IMG/VR virus record: IMGVR_UViG_3300036719_003235
Coordinates: 1 to 21,521 of that record
Length of the DNA stretch: 21,521 bases
Direction: 5' to 3' (one strand)
DNA from: a virus
Positions 2,570 to 14,793 of this stretch are shown here, piece after piece (the first letter of the stretch is position 1; each line of letters starts with the position of its first letter). The notes under the pieces were generated by a model. The model was not told where the DNA came from, did not search any database, and worked only from the letters and a program-made list of their open reading frames with translations. The translations under genes and the position numbers were made by a program.

Positions 2570-3015
2570 ACATCGACGAAGGCAAACTTGAGTGGTTCGG
2601 AGGGAACCAAGACGCCCTGAATATGTTTCGGGCGTTTATCTTTTTGTCGCATGCTTGGGATGACATGGTGGACAAGGATAAGGATGTATCCGATGACACC
2701 ATTAACCAAGCCTTCCTGACCGCGCTTGTTTATCTTCCGGCCAACCCGTTTTACCGCAGCATCCAAGACGCCATCTTGCCAATGTGGTTGGTTGTAGTTT
2801 CTTCGTTTGAAACTGCAAATACTTTTGAGCGAAACAAAGACCCGCATGGGATTGAGATTGCGCATAGTCTGCGGTACGCTGCTGGCAATATCGTGGCTTA
2901 CGCCGTACATGTTTGTGTTGGCCCAGAGAAAGCGAAAGAGATTCTTCCAGATGTCTGGAAAGCTGTGTTTTATGAGCGGTTTGACGACTACCGCAAGGAG
3001 CATCTAAATGTTTAA
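2566..3015 (+). CDS. Helical 149-aa protein with DDMVD motif, function unknown
   Basis: The frame starts in an ATGA overlap with the upstream stop and ends 8 nt inside the next gene, so it is embedded in the structural operon. It has no good ribosome binding site and probably depends on coupling. The protein looks entirely helical. Residues 23-36 read AFIFLSHAWDDMVD, followed by a VSDDTIN segment at 41-47. The DDMVD matches the DDxxD pattern that binds magnesium-diphosphate in class I isoprenoid synthases, but the protein is much shorter than those enzymes and no clear second metal motif is evident. It carries no Gly-rich virion repeats, unlike its neighbours, and its base composition is lower in GC (about 46% by hand count over 2761-2880). 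Function is unknown. Confidence 0.8.
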   Translation: MNIDEGKLEWFGGNQDALNMFRAFIFLSHAWDDMVDKDKDVSDDTINQAFLTALVYLPANPFYRSIQDAILPMWLVVVSSFETANTFERNKDPHGIEIAHSLRYAAGNIVAYAVHVCVGPEKAKEILPDVWKAVFYERFDDYRKEHLNV

Positions 3016-4096
3016 GCTTTGGAAGTGGTTGTTCAACCCCGACTGGTTTATTCTGAGTATTGGCGGCGGCGGCGGTGGCGGTAGCTCAGCCCCTGCTTCT
3101 CAAACACAAGTTTCTGATCTGCCAGAGTGGGCCAAGCCGTACGCCAAAGAGACTCTTGGCAAAGCTTCTGCGCTGACAGACATTAATCAAAACCCATATC
3201 AGACGTACGGCGGTGAGCGGACCGCTGGTTTTACGCCAATGCAGCAACAGGCTCAATCGGCAGCCGCACAACTGCAGCCCTCTCAACTTGGGCAATACGC
3301 AGGGCAGCTAGCCGGTGCTGCTACGTACGGGGCCTTGGGCACAACGTATGACCCGTACCAAATGGGGCAGTTTACAAGCCAAGCCGCCGGTCAGTACATG
3401 AACCCGTTCACTGAACAAGCAATGGCTCCCCAGCTTCGGGAGGCGCAGCGGTCTTCTGAAATGCAGCGGATGGCTGATCAGGCGCAAGCGGTTCGCTCCG
3501 GGGCTTTCGGCGGTTCACGGCAGGCAATTATTGAGGCAGAGCGCCAGCGCAATTTGGGTATGCAACAAGGCGACATCCGCGCTCGTGGGTATCAAGCTGC
3601 GTTTGATCGAGCCCAAGAGCAGTTTGCCCGTGAGCAGCAGCTTCGTGAGCAGTCCCGCCAGTATGGTGCTGGCCTCGGCTTGCAGGGATTGCAGACTGCA
3701 CTCCAAGGTGCAGGTCAGATGGGGCAGTTGGGTCAGACAGAGTTTGGTCAGCGCAAAGATATTATGGGCCTACAGTCCCAGTTTGGCGAGCAGCAACAGC
3801 AGCTAGAGCAGCAACGCCTTGGCCAGAGATACCAAGACTTCCTCGACCAGCAGCGGTATCCGTACCAGCAGTTGGAGTTCATGTCGAACATCCTGCGTGG
3901 CACGCCGATGGGCACTGTGCAAACCATGTACCAAGCACCGCCAAGCATTGGCTCGCAGATCGCAGGTCTTGGTCTTGCAGGCGCAGGTGCATACGGCCTG
4001 ATGAACCGCAGGGCCAAAGGCGGGGCGATCAAAGATGAAGACAAGAAGACACGCGCTGGTCTGAACGAGCTGGCGTTGATGAAGATGGGGGTCTGA
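3008..4096 (+). CDS. Gln-rich virion or ejection-type structural protein (362 aa)
   Basis: ATG 3008 is preceded by AAGGAG at 2995-3000 with seven bases of spacing, an excellent start signal although the ORF overlaps the previous stop. Residues 1-18 are aromatic and hydrophobic, followed by seven consecutive glycines (19-25). The body has LPEWAKPYAKETLG (38-51), YGGERTAGFTPMQQQA (67-82), YMNPFTEQ (130-137) and SGAFGGSRQAIIEAERQRNL (164-183). These are elements I recognise from a widespread family of tailed-phage structural proteins. Residues about 190-290 are Gln/Arg-rich and probably helical. A hydrophobic Gly-rich stretch (314-331) precedes a basic end with RAKGGAI. A virion role is likely. 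The specific part, such as internal or neck protein, is unresolved. Confidence 0.85.
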   Translation: MFKLWKWLFNPDWFILSIGGGGGGGSSAPASQTQVSDLPEWAKPYAKETLGKASALTDINQNPYQTYGGERTAGFTPMQQQAQSAAAQLQPSQLGQYAGQLAGAATYGALGTTYDPYQMGQFTSQAAGQYMNPFTEQAMAPQLREAQRSSEMQRMADQAQAVRSGAFGGSRQAIIEAERQRNLGMQQGDIRARGYQAAFDRAQEQFAREQQLREQSRQYGAGLGLQGLQTALQGAGQMGQLGQTEFGQRKDIMGLQSQFGEQQQQLEQQRLGQRYQDFLDQQRYPYQQLEFMSNILRGTPMGTVQTMYQAPPSIGSQIAGLGLAGAGAYGLMNRRAKGGAIKDEDKKTRAGLNELALMKMGV

Positions 4097-6177: not shown

Positions 6178-9100
6178 ATGGCAAACTACATCCAACTTCC
6201 CAATGGATCGTACTATCAAGCTGCGGAGGGCCAGTCCTATCTGGACGCCATCCGAGACGCACGTAAGTACTACCCGGATGCTTTTGGTGTAGTTACGCAG
6301 ACCGCGCCGCCAGAGACGGGTTTCATCCCGTCCATCAAACGCGGTTTCGCGCAGACGGGCATGTTGCTTGGGGATGTTCTCCCCGCTATGGCGGCTCGTG
6401 CGGTTGGTGCAGATGAGTACGCCAACAGGCAGCTTGCAGAAGCCGCCGCCACACAAAAAGAAATCCAAGAGAAGTACCCCGCAGCGGTCCCGTCTTTCAC
6501 GGACATTAAGAGCCCTGGAGACGCATTTCGGTACATAACCGAAGCCATTGGCGAGTCCATCCCTTCTCTTATCCCGGCCTTGTTCACAGGCGGTGCTGCC
6601 GCCGTTCTTGCGCGTCCTGCTACAGCAGCGGCTATGGAGGCGGCAAAGCAAACCGCAGCGCAACAAGTCGCGCAGGCTGCAGCCAAGGGGGCGTTGTCCG
6701 CCGAAGCAATTGAAGCAATTAAGCAAGCTGCGTTGGCGCAAGGAACCAAAGCCGCACAGAACATCGCGCTTAAATATCAAGCTGCCGGTGCCATAACAGG
6801 CTCCGCTGCACAAAACGTCCCCGAGGTGTATCAAAATATCCTTGAGGAAACAGGCAAGGAAGAGCTGGGGGCAGCACTTGTAGGCGGCGGCTTCAACGCC
6901 GTATTGGACGCCATCACACCTATCAACCTGCTGCGCAAAGCGCGAGCAGCGGGCATCCCCAGCCAGGAGATTGTTGGCGCTTGGTACAAACGGGCGGGCA
7001 GGGGTGTGGCAGAGGGCTTCCTCACCGAAGGTGCCACCGAAGCTGTGCAGGAGATGTCCAGTGCTGCGGCCGTCAAGTTTGTGGACGAGAACAAGGACTT
7101 CTTCACCAAAGAAAACTTCGTCAAGTTTCTGGACGCAGGACTGCGCGGTGGTATCGGTGGCGGTGCGGTAACCGGGGCAGCAAACGTCGCGTTTGGCACG
7201 AAAGAAAGCCCGTCCGCACTGGCCGCTCAGCAGCAAGCCGCTCAACAGGCTGCGGCAGCCGAAGAAGCCGCACGCAATCAGCCTGCGGCGTTGAACCAAC
7301 TGTACGACCAATACCAAGCCCTGAATCAACAGAAAGCGCAACTCGACGAACAGGTTGACGCACTCAGGCCAAAGAAGGGCTCCACTGCTGAAGAGAAACA
7401 AGCGTTTCAAAACGCCAAAACGCAGCGCGACGAGTTTGTCAAGACGCAATTCAAGCCGGTTGAGCTGGAGTACAACAAACGCAAGGGCGCTATTGACCAG
7501 ATGTTTGCCCAGCGGCAAGCGGACCTTGAAGCGCAAGCAGCAGCGACACAGCCAGCGGCAAAGTTAATTGCGCCGAGTGATTTGCCCGGTGCACAACCCT
7601 TCCAACTTGCCCCTGTGCCGCGTTTGATGGGCACCTACGGCGACTTGCGCACGCAGCTCAATAACATTCAAACACAGCTAGCAGCAGGGCCTGATACCGC
7701 TACACACGCCGCACTAGAGACGCAGCGGCAGCAGCTTGCCGCGCAGATGGGTGAGCTGGCCCCAATCATCGAGGCGCGTGGCGGCACAACTGATACGCTG
7801 GAAGAACTCGACAAGAAAATAAAAGCGGTTGAGAAAGAACGCATCAAGTTTTTGGAGCAGGGGGATTTTGATGCTGCGGCGCAGCAGATTGAGAAGCTCA
7901 AAGCATTGCAGCTCAAGCTGCCTATGCTGGAGGAAGCGCGGCTTACCCGAGAGCAAGCTGGCCAAACCAGAGAGCTGTTTAAAGCGGAGCCCCCGCAACC
8001 GCAAGCGCAAGGCATTAAGTATGTGAGCCCGGCTGGCGCACCGCTTTCTACCGTAGCAGAAAAGCCAGAAGACGCGGCAGTGGTGCCGGTTGATGTCATT
8101 CCGCCCAAGCAGCTTGAGAACGTCGATTCCGCAAAGACCGCTGTCCGCCAAGCCGAACAAGCGTTGGCGGATGCCGCCGCATCTAAAAACACCGAAGTTA
8201 TCTACAAAGCCGTAGATACGCTCAATCAAGCAGAGTATGCGTTGGCTCGGGCAAGAGAAAGCGTAGGACGCCCCGCGCTCAAGCCAGTTGTATTGGACAT
8301 TTTTGATCCGTACAACGTGATGCAGGAAGCTCTGCGTCGGGGGGACAGGAAGCTGCTCAACGACTTGGCGCGGCAGGTCAACAGCACAACGCTCCGGCAG
8401 TCGCTTGATGAGAAAGCCAGTGAGCGCAACCGGCTGATGAACGTGGTGCAAGGCCGCCTTGATGCGGAGGGCACAAAGCGCGAGCGCGCAGATTTGTTCA
8501 GTCAAATTTATGACGCGCAGCAGCAAGCGCGTTTTAAGAACGGCACGTACCCTGACAAAGAGTTGCAGGAGATGTACGACCGGGGCGGCGCAGAGCTTGT
8601 TGAGAATGCGTGGGTTGCCGATCAAATCAAGCCGCTGATGGCCAAGGTCACGACTCCGCAAGGCAACGCCAAGAAGTCGCTCTACCAGATGTTGGTTGAA
8701 ACCGCTGCGGAGCATGCACGGCTTACCGAGCAAATGGAGTCTGGAGTCGCCACGCCCACTATGGGCGAGAAGGTAGCTGGCGTGCAGGCCAAGCTGGGCA
8801 AAGGCGAAGCCCCGGCAGAGCGCATGATGGACGCGGCAGAGCGGTATCAGCTACAGCGCAAAATTGACGGGCTGCTCAACAAGTACCGCATGATCGAGGG
8901 CAAGATTACGCCCATCCGCGATCAGATTCTGGCAATTCAAAACAGCCTGTACAAAACTACGCCGCTCAAGAAGCCGAGTGTGGAGCGGGCTGAGAAGCAA
9001 GCCGCTTCGACTGAAGCGGCCAAAGGACGCAAAGCAAAATCACGCACGGCAGCAACGGCAGCGCGTATTGCCAAAGGCGATGTGCGCAAAGAGGCCGAGG

Positions 9101-12100
9101 CTTCACAAAAGCTGCGCGATTTGGCGCTTGAGTTGGGCATGCGTGAGCCCGCATACGCCAAGTTGGAGAAAGACGCAACCAAACGCATGACCGCTCTTGA
9201 GGAGCGGTACGGTGACGATGACCCCCAGGTGCGGGCATATCGCAAGCAAGTTGCTGAAGAACTGCCCGAGAAAGCACGGGCGCTGGGCCGTCAGACGCCA
9301 GAGTACAAAGCCACGCTTAAAGAGCAGATAGCGTACTTCCAAGAAGTGCTGCCAACCGCAGGCAAACAGGAAGTACCGACCAAGCGCACGACACAGGTCA
9401 CACGCAAGCAGACGGCAGCGCCCAAACGGATGGTGACCTCGTCCGCAGAAAGCAAGGCAGCAACAGCGCGTGAGCAGCAAGCGTACACAAAATACCGTGG
9501 CTCGCTCAAAGACATGCAGGAGGCTTTGGAGGCCGAAAAGCAAGGGCGTGAGGACGAGCGTTTTGCTCGGGGTGTTGAGGTTGAGAGCCCTAACCTGACA
9601 CCTACGCAGGTTCAGGCGTTGGAAGAAAACGATCTGACGGCGGCGTTGGCGGACATTGCAAACAATAAAAAGAACACGCCACTCAACCGTGCGGTTGCGC
9701 AGCGGCTCTCTGTTCTGTTGGATGCAACAGATGTGCAGCTTGATGACAAGCTGGTTTTTGATGGCGAGGAAGTGCTTGGCGCAGCTACCAGCAAACTGGT
9801 ACAGCTTAGCCGCGACGGCGGTCTTTCACAAGAAGTGTTGTTGCACGAAGGCACTCACGCAGCGGCTGAGCGCGTAATTGTCCAGTACGAGAAAGACCCC
9901 AGCAAGCTTACAGAGCAGCAGCGCGTTGCTGTTCGTGAACTCAAAGCTATTTTTGAGGCCGTCAAAAAAGACCCCCGCATCACCAGCGTCAACGCCAAGA
10001 GCAGCCTGTCTGAGTTTGTGGCAGAGGTGATGTCCAACAGCAAGTTGCAAGAGCAACTGCGTGAGAAGCCGTGGCGCATGTCTGACATGCTACGCGCCAT
10101 TAAGAGCGTAATCCTGCGCATGGTTGGCATCAAGCCAAGCGAAGTAGAGACCATGCTTGGCGCTTCGATTACGGCAGTTGATGCGCTGTTCATTCCGTCC
10201 AGCACACGTTTGGGCACTACGGAGCAGCGAGTCACACGCCAGCTTTCTGCCAAAGATATTGCCGCGCTACACGACGGTAGTAACTCAATGCAGCAGTTTG
10301 CAGATCAGTTTGGTCCGTTGATCAAACAGGCAGACCGCACGCCGCAGGATGTTGAGCGGATTGCAATGGACTACATCTATCAGATGGAGACCAACCCTGA
10401 AAAATACATTCCGCAGGCAGCCCCCGACAAACTGGACTACACATCAAGCACCACCATGTCTGACGGCAAGCCGTACGATGCAGACAACCCGTTGCACTAC
10501 GTCGAAGCTACGCCTGTTACTTTTGCAGCACTGGAAGCGCAGACGGACCCCGCTTTGCGGCAACGCGAAGCCCGTGAGATCAATAGTCAGCGTACGAAAG
10601 ATTTTCGGTCGCTTATCAAGTTGCTACAAAAAAACCCCAGCTACACACTGGCAGAGCAGGCGCTTGTCATCAAAGCCGCTTCGCAGTACGGGGTTGTGTC
10701 TGACAAAAACGGGCGGCTCAAGATGGCGGTGCTGGACGACAACAACCGTCACGGCATTGCGGTGGTGAGCCAGGAAGCTGCCGACGCGGTGATCCGCGAG
10801 TTGCGTGCGGGCAAGAGTTTGAAGAAAGCGTTTCTTGAGGGGCTGCAGGCCAACGCTGATGCCAGCGCCAAAGTCAACGGCCGCAAAAACGGTTGGCAGA
10901 AGTTTGAGCAGGCGCAAGATGAGTTTTTACCAAATCTTTATTCTGACGAAGAGATTGACGCCGCAACCAAAGCCGCAGGAGTCACTGACCAAGATTTTGT
11001 AGACAACGGTTGGGACAAAGAAACTTATATTGGGTGGCTTATTGAAAACGGCTACTTAAAGGAGCGCGGCGGGGCAATAGAACAAGCCGCTGTTGCATTG
11101 AACGCAGGCGCTGCGGGCACGCCTTGGTGCACTGGTGGGTCTGTAAGCACTGCGCGAACGCAGATTGAACAAGGCGACTTTTACATCTACTACAAAGACG
11201 GCAAGCCGGAAGTTGCCGTGCGTATGAACGGCCAAGACGAGATTGGCGAAGTGCGCGGCAACAACCCTGATCAGGCACTCGATGCAGAGCAGCAAAAGAT
11301 AGCGGCGGACTTTTTATCGAGCAGCGGGTTTGCTGGCGCAGACAAATACCTTGAAGAGTTTGCAACTAAACAAAAGCTGATTGATATTGCCAAAGGTGAC
11401 GCTCAATTTGATTTGAATGATTTGCTGCGTCTTGGGCGCAATCCCGTAGAAGACGATGGCGGTGTTAACTATAAGAACGTCAAACGGTTGTTTAAATTTA
11501 GGGCCGTCGATGGCTACAGCAATCGCCCCGACCCATCTGATGCCGTGGTCAACTTTTTTGGTCAAGAACTAAAAGACGCGGTATTTGAGCAGTACGCTAA
11601 AAACGCGTTTATCTACAGCTCAGTTGATGTGCCAGGAAAAGGCAAAATAGACTACAGCGGCCGACCTGTCAAGGTTGATCAAAAAATTGAAGTTGAGTTA
11701 GGTGGCCAGACTTTTGAAGCCACTCCTGACACGCTTGTGGCGGCGGACAAGCTTAATTTTTCAGCACACAACGGCGCGCGCTTTTCTTTGCCACGACTTA
11801 CCTACGCTGGAGAAATCGATGTCTTTGCCAACGACCTTCGCCCAAAGATATCTATTGACCTGCCGTCGGTAAAACTGATTGAAGGTATTATTACCTTTAC
11901 CGAAGTACCCGATTTTGCTGTTGTGACACTGCCAAGAGATGCAGTGGTGAAAGAGCTGCGGGGCTATGCCGCTCACTCAACCTACATTGAGGTTCGCGGT
12001 CCTCGGCGTATTAACGCTGTGCGCGTAGTGGGCTACGGCGACGACGCCAAGCCTTTACACGCATACTTGCCCGACACACAGTACTTTAAGGCGCTTCGAC

Positions 12101-14793
12101 TACCGCTCAGCGGTGAAGAAACAATCAAGGCCCCCAACTTTATTGCGCCTGTACCGCCCATTGACACGCTCACTGAAGTGCCGGAGACACCGCGTTTTGC
12201 TCCCAAGGATGTTGGCGCGGTTGAAGAAAAGCCGGGCGTCTTTGGTTTCAAACGCCAGCGTACGCAGACCAGCTCTGTGGTTGGCCGCGAACCTGGGTTC
12301 ATCGACACGTTCTTTGGCAATTTCTTTGGGCTGGCGGGTCGTGTGCAGTACGTTGACCGCTGGGGCGCGCTGCGCGCCGCCATCAAGGAGGGCATGAGCG
12401 CGGGGCAGATCGACTCTTTGGAAGCCACAAACGCCGAGTACCTCATCAACTTCGGCCAGCAGACCAGCCAATACGCGCAGCAAACCCTGGTCAATGGTCC
12501 GACACGCCTTGAGCTGACAAAGAAAGACGGCTTTACGCAGAGCTTGTTCCGCAGCACCAAAGGCGTCAACATGCTCGATGTAGCCGAGACCTTGAACGCA
12601 GCCAAGATTGCTGCGCCTGCAGAGCTGGAGAACATGTTCACGGTCTATCTGGCTGGTGAACGGGCCAAGCAGGTTGGCTGGGAGAAGTTGAACTTTGAAA
12701 ACCCCGGCAAAGCTAAGGCCGAGTACGACGGCATCATTGCGCAACTCAACGCCGACAAGCAGGCAAAAGAGGTTTTTGAAAAAGCCAAGAAGCTGTACCA
12801 GCAGTACAACGCAAACCAGCTCGATCTGCTTGTGCAGACGGGTGTGATGACGCCGCAGAAGGCTGCGGAGCTGAAGTCGATCAACTACGTTCCTTACTAT
12901 CGCGTCAGCAAGAACGGTGAAGTCCAGTTGATGATTGACAAGGAGACGCCTGTACGCATCTCCAACATCAAGGACGAGCCGCAGTTGCAGTCGCTTGTGG
13001 GCGGCAATGAATACATATTGCCGATTTTTACCAGCGCGGTGCAAAACACCTACATGCTCACGCACATGGCGCTGCGCAATCAGACGGTCAAGGAAATGGC
13101 TTTCCTGCTGCAAAAGTTGGGCATTGCAAGCCGCTTGAGCGAGGGCGCTGGGCCTGCCGGTCCTGACGTTGTGCGGTTTAAGAAGAGTGGCAAGGACTAT
13201 CACGTTGTCATTGATACGGACCTGTATGGCATCCCTGCCGATCTGATCATCAAGGGCATGGAAGGTATCAAAACCACGATGCCGGGCATCGTGCGGCTGA
13301 TGGGCTACCCCGCTGATATCTTGCGCACGTTTGTCACGCGCATGCCGACGTATGCCATACGACAGATGATCCGTGATCCGCTCAATGCCTGGATGACCAC
13401 TGGCACAGATGCGATGCCTGTGCTGTCCTCAATGAAGGAGCTGGCCACCATGATGGCCGGGCGCAATGAGACCCAGCGCAAGCTCATGGAAACTGGCGCC
13501 ATCAGCAGCAACGTGTTCAGTGGTGATGAACGCGACATGGCCAAGTTCATCAAGGACATTTCTGCTGGTAAATCGTTGTGGGCCAAGACGCTGGCCAAAG
13601 CCGACGCGCTTGCAATGCAGGCCGACGCTGCAACCCGTGTGGTGGTGTACAAGGACTCGTTGGCCAAAGGGATGTCTGAACAAGAGGCGCTTAACCGAAC
13701 CCTGGAGTCAATGAACTTTGGTCGTCGCGGTGTGTCCCCCAGCATGCACTGGCTGTCCGTGATGATCCCGTTCTTCAACGCGCAGATTCAGGGCCTGGAC
13801 GTTATCTATCGCGCATACAAAGGCGATATGCCGTACAGCGAGCAGCTCAAGATCAAAGAGAAGCTAATGGCACGCGGCGCTATGATGGCAATGGGTACGC
13901 TTGCATATGCCGCGCTGATGAGTGACGATGAGGCGTACAAACGCGCCAAGCCGGAGGAGCGGTTTGCCAACTGGTTTGTGTACATCCCAGGCGTCTCTGA
14001 GCCTGTGCGTGTTCCGATCCCGTTTGAATTGGGCTTCTTGTTCAAGGCGCTGCCAGAGGCGGTATACGGGTTGGCCTTCAATGACGAGAAGGCTGGCAAG
14101 ACGCTCAAGGGCTTGGGCAAGCTTGTGGATCAGAGCAACCCGTTCTCGCTGCCGCAGGCCATCAAACCCCTCACTGAAGTTGTGTTGGGACGCTCGTTCT
14201 TCCAAGGCGACATTGAGTCCGCACGGGAAAAAGAGCAGATGACCGCAGACAGATACCGTGCAAACACTACGGAGGTTGCTAAGCTGCTTGGCCAAGTCAC
14301 GGGCAAGGTCGGCGTATCCCCCATCGAGATTGACTACCTGATCCGTGGCTACTTTGGCGGCTTGGGCATCGCCATCACGCAGCTTGCCAACCCGATACTA
14401 ACGATAGACCAGAAGGAAGCCGCACAGCCGTCAACCAAGCCCAGCAAGCTGCCATTCATCGGCGGCCTGTTCCAGCCGGTGGAAGGTCGGGGGACGCTCG
14501 ACGAGGCGTATGACCGGATGCAAGAGATCAAACAGGTCAAGGGCACGTACAACAAGCTGATTGAAGACGGCAAGAGGGCAGAAGCGCAAGCGTTTGTGCA
14601 ACGCTACACCAATGATCTGGCGCAAGCCTCTGTGTCGGGTCGCGTGCAGAAGCAACTGGGCGAGCTTGCCAAGCAAGAGCGCATCATCAAAGCGCACCCA
14701 ACGATGCCGACGGAAGAAAAGGACAGGCGTTTGGAACAACTGGACAAGATCAAAGTCCAACTCGCCCGTCAGTTCTTGGCGGTAGCTCGGTAG
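6178..14793 (+). CDS. Giant phage large polyvalent-type protein (2871 aa) with HEGTH peptidase motif
   Basis: The start is ATG 6178. The N-terminus MANYIQLPNGSYYQAAEG fits the usual beginning of such proteins, although the upstream ribosome site is weak. Residues 1-340 contain several hydrophobic, Ala/Gly-rich helices (for example SIPSLIPALFTGG and GGIGGGAVTGAANV) that could insert in or cross membranes. Charged coiled coils cover about 343-610 and 870-1180. A zinc metallopeptidase motif HEGTH sits at 1223-1227, with a likely third ligand in SEFVAE (E1279 or E1283). Residues about 1427-2000 form a distinct insert with TPWCTGG (1648-1654), GDFYIYYKDGKPEVAVRM and EVRGNNPDQ, reminiscent of PcfJ-type domains, then a beta-rich repeat-like stretch. 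From about 2041 to 2530 the sequence, including RQMIRDPLNAW (2395-2405), resembles the LPD38 domain of large polyvalent proteins. The C-terminus has a hydrophobic helix near 2566-2581 and a charged helical end. Such proteins are believed to be packaged and delivered with the genome. Domain names are by recall. Confidence 0.9.
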   Translation: MANYIQLPNGSYYQAAEGQSYLDAIRDARKYYPDAFGVVTQTAPPETGFIPSIKRGFAQTGMLLGDVLPAMAARAVGADEYANRQLAEAAATQKEIQEKYPAAVPSFTDIKSPGDAFRYITEAIGESIPSLIPALFTGGAAAVLARPATAAAMEAAKQTAAQQVAQAAAKGALSAEAIEAIKQAALAQGTKAAQNIALKYQAAGAITGSAAQNVPEVYQNILEETGKEELGAALVGGGFNAVLDAITPINLLRKARAAGIPSQEIVGAWYKRAGRGVAEGFLTEGATEAVQEMSSAAAVKFVDENKDFFTKENFVKFLDAGLRGGIGGGAVTGAANVAFGTKESPSALAAQQQAAQQAAAAEEAARNQPAALNQLYDQYQALNQQKAQLDEQVDALRPKKGSTAEEKQAFQNAKTQRDEFVKTQFKPVELEYNKRKGAIDQMFAQRQADLEAQAAATQPAAKLIAPSDLPGAQPFQLAPVPRLMGTYGDLRTQLNNIQTQLAAGPDTATHAALETQRQQLAAQMGELAPIIEARGGTTDTLEELDKKIKAVEKERIKFLEQGDFDAAAQQIEKLKALQLKLPMLEEARLTREQAGQTRELFKAEPPQPQAQGIKYVSPAGAPLSTVAEKPEDAAVVPVDVIPPKQLENVDSAKTAVRQAEQALADAAASKNTEVIYKAVDTLNQAEYALARARESVGRPALKPVVLDIFDPYNVMQEALRRGDRKLLNDLARQVNSTTLRQSLDEKASERNRLMNVVQGRLDAEGTKRERADLFSQIYDAQQQARFKNGTYPDKELQEMYDRGGAELVENAWVADQIKPLMAKVTTPQGNAKKSLYQMLVETAAEHARLTEQMESGVATPTMGEKVAGVQAKLGKGEAPAERMMDAAERYQLQRKIDGLLNKYRMIEGKITPIRDQILAIQNSLYKTTPLKKPSVERAEKQAASTEAAKGRKAKSRTAATAARIAKGDVRKEAEASQKLRDLALELGMREPAYAKLEKDATKRMTALEERYGDDDPQVRAYRKQVAEELPEKARALGRQTPEYKATLKEQIAYFQEVLPTAGKQEVPTKRTTQVTRKQTAAPKRMVTSSAESKAATAREQQAYTKYRGSLKDMQEALEAEKQGREDERFARGVEVESPNLTPTQVQALEENDLTAALADIANNKKNTPLNRAVAQRLSVLLDATDVQLDDKLVFDGEEVLGAATSKLVQLSRDGGLSQEVLLHEGTHAAAERVIVQYEKDPSKLTEQQRVAVRELKAIFEAVKKDPRITSVNAKSSLSEFVAEVMSNSKLQEQLREKPWRMSDMLRAIKSVILRMVGIKPSEVETMLGASITAVDALFIPSSTRLGTTEQRVTRQLSAKDIAALHDGSNSMQQFADQFGPLIKQADRTPQDVERIAMDYIYQMETNPEKYIPQAAPDKLDYTSSTTMSDGKPYDADNPLHYVEATPVTFAALEAQTDPALRQREAREINSQRTKDFRSLIKLLQKNPSYTLAEQALVIKAASQYGVVSDKNGRLKMAVLDDNNRHGIAVVSQEAADAVIRELRAGKSLKKAFLEGLQANADASAKVNGRKNGWQKFEQAQDEFLPNLYSDEEIDAATKAAGVTDQDFVDNGWDKETYIGWLIENGYLKERGGAIEQAAVALNAGAAGTPWCTGGSVSTARTQIEQGDFYIYYKDGKPEVAVRMNGQDEIGEVRGNNPDQALDAEQQKIAADFLSSSGFAGADKYLEEFATKQKLIDIAKGDAQFDLNDLLRLGRNPVEDDGGVNYKNVKRLFKFRAVDGYSNRPDPSDAVVNFFGQELKDAVFEQYAKNAFIYSSVDVPGKGKIDYSGRPVKVDQKIEVELGGQTFEATPDTLVAADKLNFSAHNGARFSLPRLTYAGEIDVFANDLRPKISIDLPSVKLIEGIITFTEVPDFAVVTLPRDAVVKELRGYAAHSTYIEVRGPRRINAVRVVGYGDDAKPLHAYLPDTQYFKALRLPLSGEETIKAPNFIAPVPPIDTLTEVPETPRFAPKDVGAVEEKPGVFGFKRQRTQTSSVVGREPGFIDTFFGNFFGLAGRVQYVDRWGALRAAIKEGMSAGQIDSLEATNAEYLINFGQQTSQYAQQTLVNGPTRLELTKKDGFTQSLFRSTKGVNMLDVAETLNAAKIAAPAELENMFTVYLAGERAKQVGWEKLNFENPGKAKAEYDGIIAQLNADKQAKEVFEKAKKLYQQYNANQLDLLVQTGVMTPQKAAELKSINYVPYYRVSKNGEVQLMIDKETPVRISNIKDEPQLQSLVGGNEYILPIFTSAVQNTYMLTHMALRNQTVKEMAFLLQKLGIASRLSEGAGPAGPDVVRFKKSGKDYHVVIDTDLYGIPADLIIKGMEGIKTTMPGIVRLMGYPADILRTFVTRMPTYAIRQMIRDPLNAWMTTGTDAMPVLSSMKELATMMAGRNETQRKLMETGAISSNVFSGDERDMAKFIKDISAGKSLWAKTLAKADALAMQADAATRVVVYKDSLAKGMSEQEALNRTLESMNFGRRGVSPSMHWLSVMIPFFNAQIQGLDVIYRAYKGDMPYSEQLKIKEKLMARGAMMAMGTLAYAALMSDDEAYKRAKPEERFANWFVYIPGVSEPVRVPIPFELGFLFKALPEAVYGLAFNDEKAGKTLKGLGKLVDQSNPFSLPQAIKPLTEVVLGRSFFQGDIESAREKEQMTADRYRANTTEVAKLLGQVTGKVGVSPIEIDYLIRGYFGGLGIAITQLANPILTIDQKEAAQPSTKPSKLPFIGGLFQPVEGRGTLDEAYDRMQEIKQVKGTYNKLIEDGKRAEAQAFVQRYTNDLAQASVSGRVQKQLGELAKQERIIKAHPTMPTEEKDRRLEQLDKIKVQLARQFLAVAR
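9844..9858 (+). other. HEGTH zinc-binding motif in the giant protein
   Basis: Codons 1223-1227 encode His-Glu-Gly-Thr-His, flanked as VLLHEGTHAAAE. The E of SEFVAE about 55 residues later is a plausible third metal ligand, as in polyvalent-protein metallopeptidases. The spacing fits that family by memory. Confidence 0.65.

Follow-up and report, generated by a model that had tools for sequence, protein, structure and literature searches.

Giant gene and the limits of its cassette

The window, which is the whole stretch of DNA analyzed in this study, is a single stretch of 21,521 bases registered as an IMG/VR virus record, and carries a giant open reading frame (ORF) with a DNA-ejection-protein-like gene upstream of it (Table 1). 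LPD38 was the sole domain recognized by Pfam in the giant protein (E 3.2e-31), and is reported to be confined to polyvalent proteins of the phage type (PMC5512222). PHROG 9854 and 18222 matched residues 2198-2868 of the protein, and PHROG 2206 (virion RNA polymerase, peptidase part) matched residues 1216-1402. Both the HExxH motif and the conserved Glu in the next helix, by which zincins are recognized, were found in the peptidase region: HE-x-x-H (HEGTH at 9844-9858 in the window) occurred in all four rows of alignment A7, followed by the invariant SLSEF-AE. As several unlike domains, namely LPD38, the peptidase region, and the WCT domain and solenoid described below, are combined in one giant protein, we regard it as a polyvalent protein. 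Such proteins were proposed to be injected and cut by their own zincin-like peptidases (PMC5512222). Because of this proposal and the adjoining ejection-protein-like gene, the giant protein is considered to enter the host probably with the phage DNA.

Table 1. Positions of the giant gene, its parts and its upstream neighbor in the window.
Feature	Position	Strand	Basis or remark
DNA-ejection-protein-like gene	3008..4096	+	PHROG 4287, E 1.2e-16; upstream of giant ORF
Giant ORF, 2871 aa, LPD38-type polyvalent protein	6178..14793	+	one intact open frame
Zincin-like metallopeptidase region	9562..10191	+	own profile A7, PHROG 2206, HExxH position
Optional cassette, ~667 aa	~10204..12204	+	limits from relatives without cassette, accurate to a few codons only
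N-terminal helical part, KDIAALHDGSNSM... to ...AKVNGRKN	10255..10887	+	AlphaFold model m35f46635c3a5, residues 1-211; conserved in alignment A4
WCT domain, predicted GNAT-like fold, residues 1571-1728	10888..11361	+	model residues 212-369; homologues; alignment A8
Nested variable-length insert, GWQKFEQ strand to AVALNAGAAGT helix	10909..11076	+	length comparison among relatives
TPWCTGG, residues 1648-1654	11119..11139	+	read in giant frame
Strands GDFYIYYK, PEVAVRM, IGEVRG, then NNPDQ	11173..11274	+	sequence and model
Predicted beta-solenoid, residues 1801-1975, GC-poor	11578..12102	+	model residues 442-616
Low-confidence linker preceding LPD38 part	12103..12183	+	pLDDT <50
LPD38 domain	13927..14460	+	Pfam

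The cassette sits in frame between the HEGTH peptidase and the LPD38 part. An initial reading made from the sequence alone had pointed out a separate in-frame module at this place, and the relatives without the module support it, albeit the limits given there (10454-12120) turned out to be too narrow. The motifs by which the module had been noticed were all located in the giant frame, i.e., TPWCTGG, GDFYIYYKDGKPEVAVRM (11173-11226), EVRGNNPDQ (11248-11274), and IDVFANDLRPKISIDLPSVK (11815-11874).

Distribution of the cassette and its WCT domain

Scans of IMG/VR with the module detected 4, 23, and 51 loci, from which ~45 distinct ones remained after the repeats were removed. Where the relatives encode a giant protein of the LPD38 type, the module is part of one open frame and is placed between HExxH and the LPD38 part. 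A scan with the LPD38 part retrieved 80 close loci. Among 94 non-redundant rows, the module was present in 41 and another N-terminal half in 32; three rows retained this peptidase but had no intact module, and the remaining 18 were too short to tell. When related phages were compared, as the sequence-only reading had suggested, the segment was cleanly absent in L245 and L249 and reduced in L187. The L238 and L245 proteins were aligned at 1-1440/3-1462 (62%) and 2278-3164/1458-2344 (86%), and ~837 aa were cleanly missing in L245 against its sister L238/L130, the peptidase and LPD38 part being kept. L249 represents a second empty site in which the peptidase and LPD38 part are retained. L187 retains the first ~90 and the last ~30 aa of the module, for which a deletion within the module is the best reading.

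In a quick LPD38 tree, the cassette was scattered, and at least 10 changes between its presence and absence were mapped on strongly supported branches. As the root of this tree was not inferred, gain and loss of the cassette cannot be told apart for the window genome from these sequences. The identity of the cassette correlated only weakly with that of LPD38 (Spearman 0.26), and the modules have therefore moved between backgrounds, in many cases along with the peptidase half. The mean pairwise identity of the cassette (0.50) was near that of LPD38 (0.52), implying that the cassette is under constraint. Judging from the number of distinct phage versions, the cassette is old. It is located at the same junction in dozens of divergent phages.

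Thirteen positions of the WCT domain were invariant in 103 sequences. W1650, C1651, and T1652 of TPWCTGG belong to these positions, but the invariance of WCT and that of G, D, F, and Y in GDFY were partly built into the search patterns. None of A1680, R1682, E1691, R1693, G1694, and Q1699, which were also invariant, was required by the patterns. The spacing between GWQKF and TxWCT varied from 23 to ~197 aa among relatives, with a nested insert of 0 to ~170 aa (L002, L012, and L017). On the basis of its sequence, WCT is a conserved domain family, for which the module and its relatives as queries found no confident match in four family libraries (Pfam, NCBIfam, PHROGs, and PADLOC). The matches of the WCT stretch to INPHARED phages and PLSDB plasmids were at the level of chance, and the PDB searched by sequence yielded nothing useful for the module.

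A first scan of genomes with phage-only sequences detected no relatives. The productive query was a consensus of the bacterial type, which was confirmed subsequently by viral matches. The scan, with a mixed alignment, retrieved 181 stretches (80 kept), mostly of metagenome assemblies; the majority were of Patescibacteria and the rest of some Bacilli, Tenericutes, and others. The profiles of the phage and bacterial WCT sequences matched each other with a probability of 99.6% over 155 columns, by which the cassette is homologous to the bacterial WCT proteins. All of the phage WCT sequences formed a single clade except L029, a bacterial-type sequence with which the window shares 42% identity. L029 (IMGVR_UViG_3300033402_000781) is a record of a viral collection that carries a Saccharibacteria-like WCT gene, and is either a Patescibacteria phage or a host contig deposited as a virus. 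The distribution of WCT in bacteria was patchy: 14 of the 192 sampled genomes in the phylum of L044 possessed it, and among 199 genomes in the phylum of L107 it was found in the seed genome only. The bacterial WCT genes were surrounded by housekeeping genes, e.g., glyA-like and gyrase-like ones as named by eye from the sequence, and this neighborhood does not by itself suggest a function in attack.

Repeats were observed downstream of WCT in other proteins as well. In L026 (1-7362) and L124, WCT resides in an LPD39 giant protein and is followed by a long array of SFPVLKTA-type repeats of ~18 residues, with the peptidase downstream of, and not upstream of, the WCT module. L160:6155-17707 encodes a phage giant protein of 3851 aa with Kinase-PolyVal and WCT, soon after which Toastrack DUF4097 is found. 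A Clostridia WCT protein (L107:1534-3867) carries eight DUF4116 repeats after WCT.

Predicted folds and the proposed function

The whole module was modeled by AlphaFold2 with a pLDDT of 85.3 and a pTM of 0.76. For a relative, L020, the WCT domain was modeled by itself with values of 86.6 and 0.78. In the fold search with the whole module, residues 212-369 matched GNATs and residues 442-616 matched beta-solenoids. The best match of the latter was ChiW (5gzt_B; Z 9.7, 128 residues, rmsd 3.6), and a beta-solenoid is thus predicted for the beta-rich stretch, in agreement with the sequence-only reading; this stretch of the window has no sequence relation to a named family detectable by Pfam. For the WCT domain alone, the 50 PDB rows listed by VIA-align were all of the GNAT fold (Z 4.8-6.6). 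In BFVD, the top match of this domain was a long unnamed phage protein and GNATs were ranked 5, 10, and 14. Foldseek with the whole model of 643 residues found a single match below E 0.001, which was to an unnamed phage protein, and none in PDB. The order of the elements in the L020 model agreed with the GNAT core (beta1-alpha1-alpha2-beta2-beta3-beta4-alpha3). On the other hand, motif A of GNATs, R/Q-x-x-G-x-G/A for acetyl-CoA, is absent from the conserved WCT sequence, in which the consensus between beta4 and alpha3 is EVRGxxPxQNL. Likewise, beta5 splayed from beta4 is absent in the predicted model, which has two helices after beta4. Altogether, a GNAT-like core is predicted for the WCT domain, albeit the scores are modest and Z scores below 8 could reflect a common arrangement alone.

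We tentatively favor, at slightly less than even odds, that the region is an old optional in-frame cassette, in which a GNAT-like WCT domain is preceded by a helical lead-in and followed by a beta-solenoid, and that it works as an ejected effector. The giant protein would pass into the cell along with the DNA, and the upstream peptidase would release the cassette by cleavage. The solenoid might then recognize a host molecule, on which the WCT domain would act, perhaps as a transferase of the acyl or aminoacyl type. Its active site would differ from the acetyl-CoA site of known GNATs. Catalysis by WCT is putative, as neither the acetyl-CoA motif nor the strand beta5 after the helix was seen. 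The association of WCT with a repeat domain in four unrelated settings (the LPD38 giants, L026/L124 with LPD39, L160 with the polyvalent kinase and Toastrack, and the bacterial proteins) supports a pair of catalytic and recognition domains. Phages may gain, lose, and exchange the cassette because it is useful on some hosts only. The case shows a phage polyvalent protein that swaps a whole effector-like cassette in frame, and the natural relatives with and without the cassette allow a direct test. WCT itself is conserved, common to Patescibacteria and phages, and bears a candidate active site.

The strongest competitor, to which we assign about one chance in four, regards the cassette as a structural or binding part of a virion protein, i.e., a spacer or scaffold, in which the GNAT-like part merely binds a ligand. 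The missing acetyl-CoA motif and beta5 would fit with this idea, as would a tailspike found among the weaker fold matches of the module, and solenoids often serve as structural parts of phage particles. Nevertheless, the polar invariants C1651, T1652, D1667, R1682, E1691, R1693, and Q1699 resemble an active site or a ligand site, and close relatives do without the whole cassette.

The sequence-only reading regarded the WCT region as PcfJ-like, and this claim survives only as a suggestion of distant relationship. We consider it improbable that WCT is a PcfJ-type domain, i.e., a member of this family, which occurs in conjugative elements and phages, with the function of PcfJ whatever that be (no useful paper on the latter was found in the literature). 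The Pfam model of PcfJ (PF14284) matched none of the window protein, five relatives, and the WCT-bearing genomes, while the controls and true PcfJ genes did match. A PcfJ alignment built from the Pfam-matched members and their relatives was collinear with WCT, but the hhalign E of 0.008 was for a single pair and the probability was only 5%. The profile score was 21 against a decoy mean of 12, and ~3 of 200 column-shuffled decoys scored as high (empirical p ~0.02). In motifs, PcfJ has EGxTLHHCV followed by three strands, and EGKTLHHCVGGY..G.TTILFIR..P...T.E..I.Q.HG is collinear with GTGWCTAG..GDFYVYY..P.VAIRM..I.EVRG, but HC-V of PcfJ is replaced by WC-T. When structure prediction was applied as the sequence-only reading had recommended, the WCT part appeared to be GNAT-like, with PcfJ-like proteins of high TMq ranked 8, 9, and 11 in BFVD (E 0.15-0.17, prob 0.51-0.77). 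Thus, the motifs, the weak profile score, and the fold ranks are suggestive of a distant origin shared by WCT and PcfJ, and an ancestor common to both above the level of the family is likelier than membership. It is conceivable, although we regard it as unlikely, that the two are branches of an unrecognized superfamily that derives from GNATs and has a Cys/Arg/Glu active site of its own, and whose members would work as cell proteins in Patescibacteria and as an injected, solenoid-aimed, exchangeable effector in phages.

Base composition and likeness to known systems

The GC content was 46.4% over 11401-11760 and 51.8% over 10454-12120, against 55.7% for the gene, and the dip to ~46% counted by hand in the sequence-only reading was reproduced. 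The scan of GC and codon usage across the giant gene, which that reading proposed, found that the lowest 120-codon window of GC3 starts at codon 1722. Codon shuffles (2000 draws) reached the observed minima of GC and GC3 in 0.2% and 0.1%, respectively. The dip affects the solenoid stretch (GC3 0.48) more strongly than the WCT motif stretch (0.56). At the four-fold degenerate sites of the window gene, GC4 was 0.51 in the solenoid and 0.65 in the remainder; as the dip persists at these sites, the amino-acid make-up was ruled out as its cause. Separately, GC3 was higher in the C-terminal LPD38 half of the giant gene (~0.72) than in the N-terminal half (~0.6).

Both GC and GC3 of the solenoid were below those of its own gene in all 37 module-bearing sequences including the window, which are related and hence not independent. 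The mean deficits over these sequences were -0.086 in GC and -0.14 in GC3, and those of the window (-0.068 and -0.15, respectively) were ordinary among them. Among 28 relatives of very different background GC, again related rows, the solenoid was lower than the rest at four-fold degenerate sites in 27 and ranked lowest among the 250-codon windows of its gene in 22. Together with the junction shared by dozens of phages, the dip in all 37 sequences implies that the composition belongs to the module itself and does not mark a new arrival; the persistent dip may reflect selection at synonymous sites or recurrent replacement with sequence from AT-rich DNA. A recent insertion of a foreign AT-rich element marked by lower GC, as read initially from the dip and compatible with the relatives without the cassette, is largely refuted and very improbable, as the dip recurs across many background GC values, the nearest cassettes are only ~60% identical, and the phage cassettes group in a single clade separate from the bacterial sequences with the single exception mentioned above.

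The LPD38 polyvalent proteins already described (Iyer et al. 2017, PMC5512222) are giant phage proteins with an HExxH peptidase and LPD38, same as the protein in the window. In the main text of that work, PcfJ and WCT are unmentioned, the GNATs described are of the RimI type, and no named counterpart of the WCT cassette was found. The predicted core fold of WCT is alike to that of the GNAT superfamily, including RimI, GCN5, VipF, and the aminoacyl-tRNA transferases MprF and ATE1, with 77-104 residues aligned, but WCT differs in the acetyl-CoA motif and beta5, and the Z scores stay under 8. The PcfJ family has a Cys motif and a three-strand pattern that are collinear with those of WCT, and PcfJ-like proteins rank near the top of the BFVD fold matches, but the family is set apart by the Pfam result, HC-V, and the weak profile score. 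The ChiW segment and Toastrack DUF4097 are right-handed beta-solenoids, the fold predicted for the C-terminal half of the cassette, and DUF4097 in L160 occupies the same place as the solenoid of the window. Lastly, the nearest clear relatives of the cassette, the WCT proteins of Patescibacteria (e.g., L044 and L032) and of some Bacilli MAGs (L105), are free-standing and chromosomal and have neither the peptidase nor LPD38. Most are 600-750 aa long, and their WCT lies near residue 270. Nevertheless, their domain is the same by sequence, and WCT is often followed by beta-type LxxAExLxLP repeats, as by the beta-solenoid in the phage cassette.
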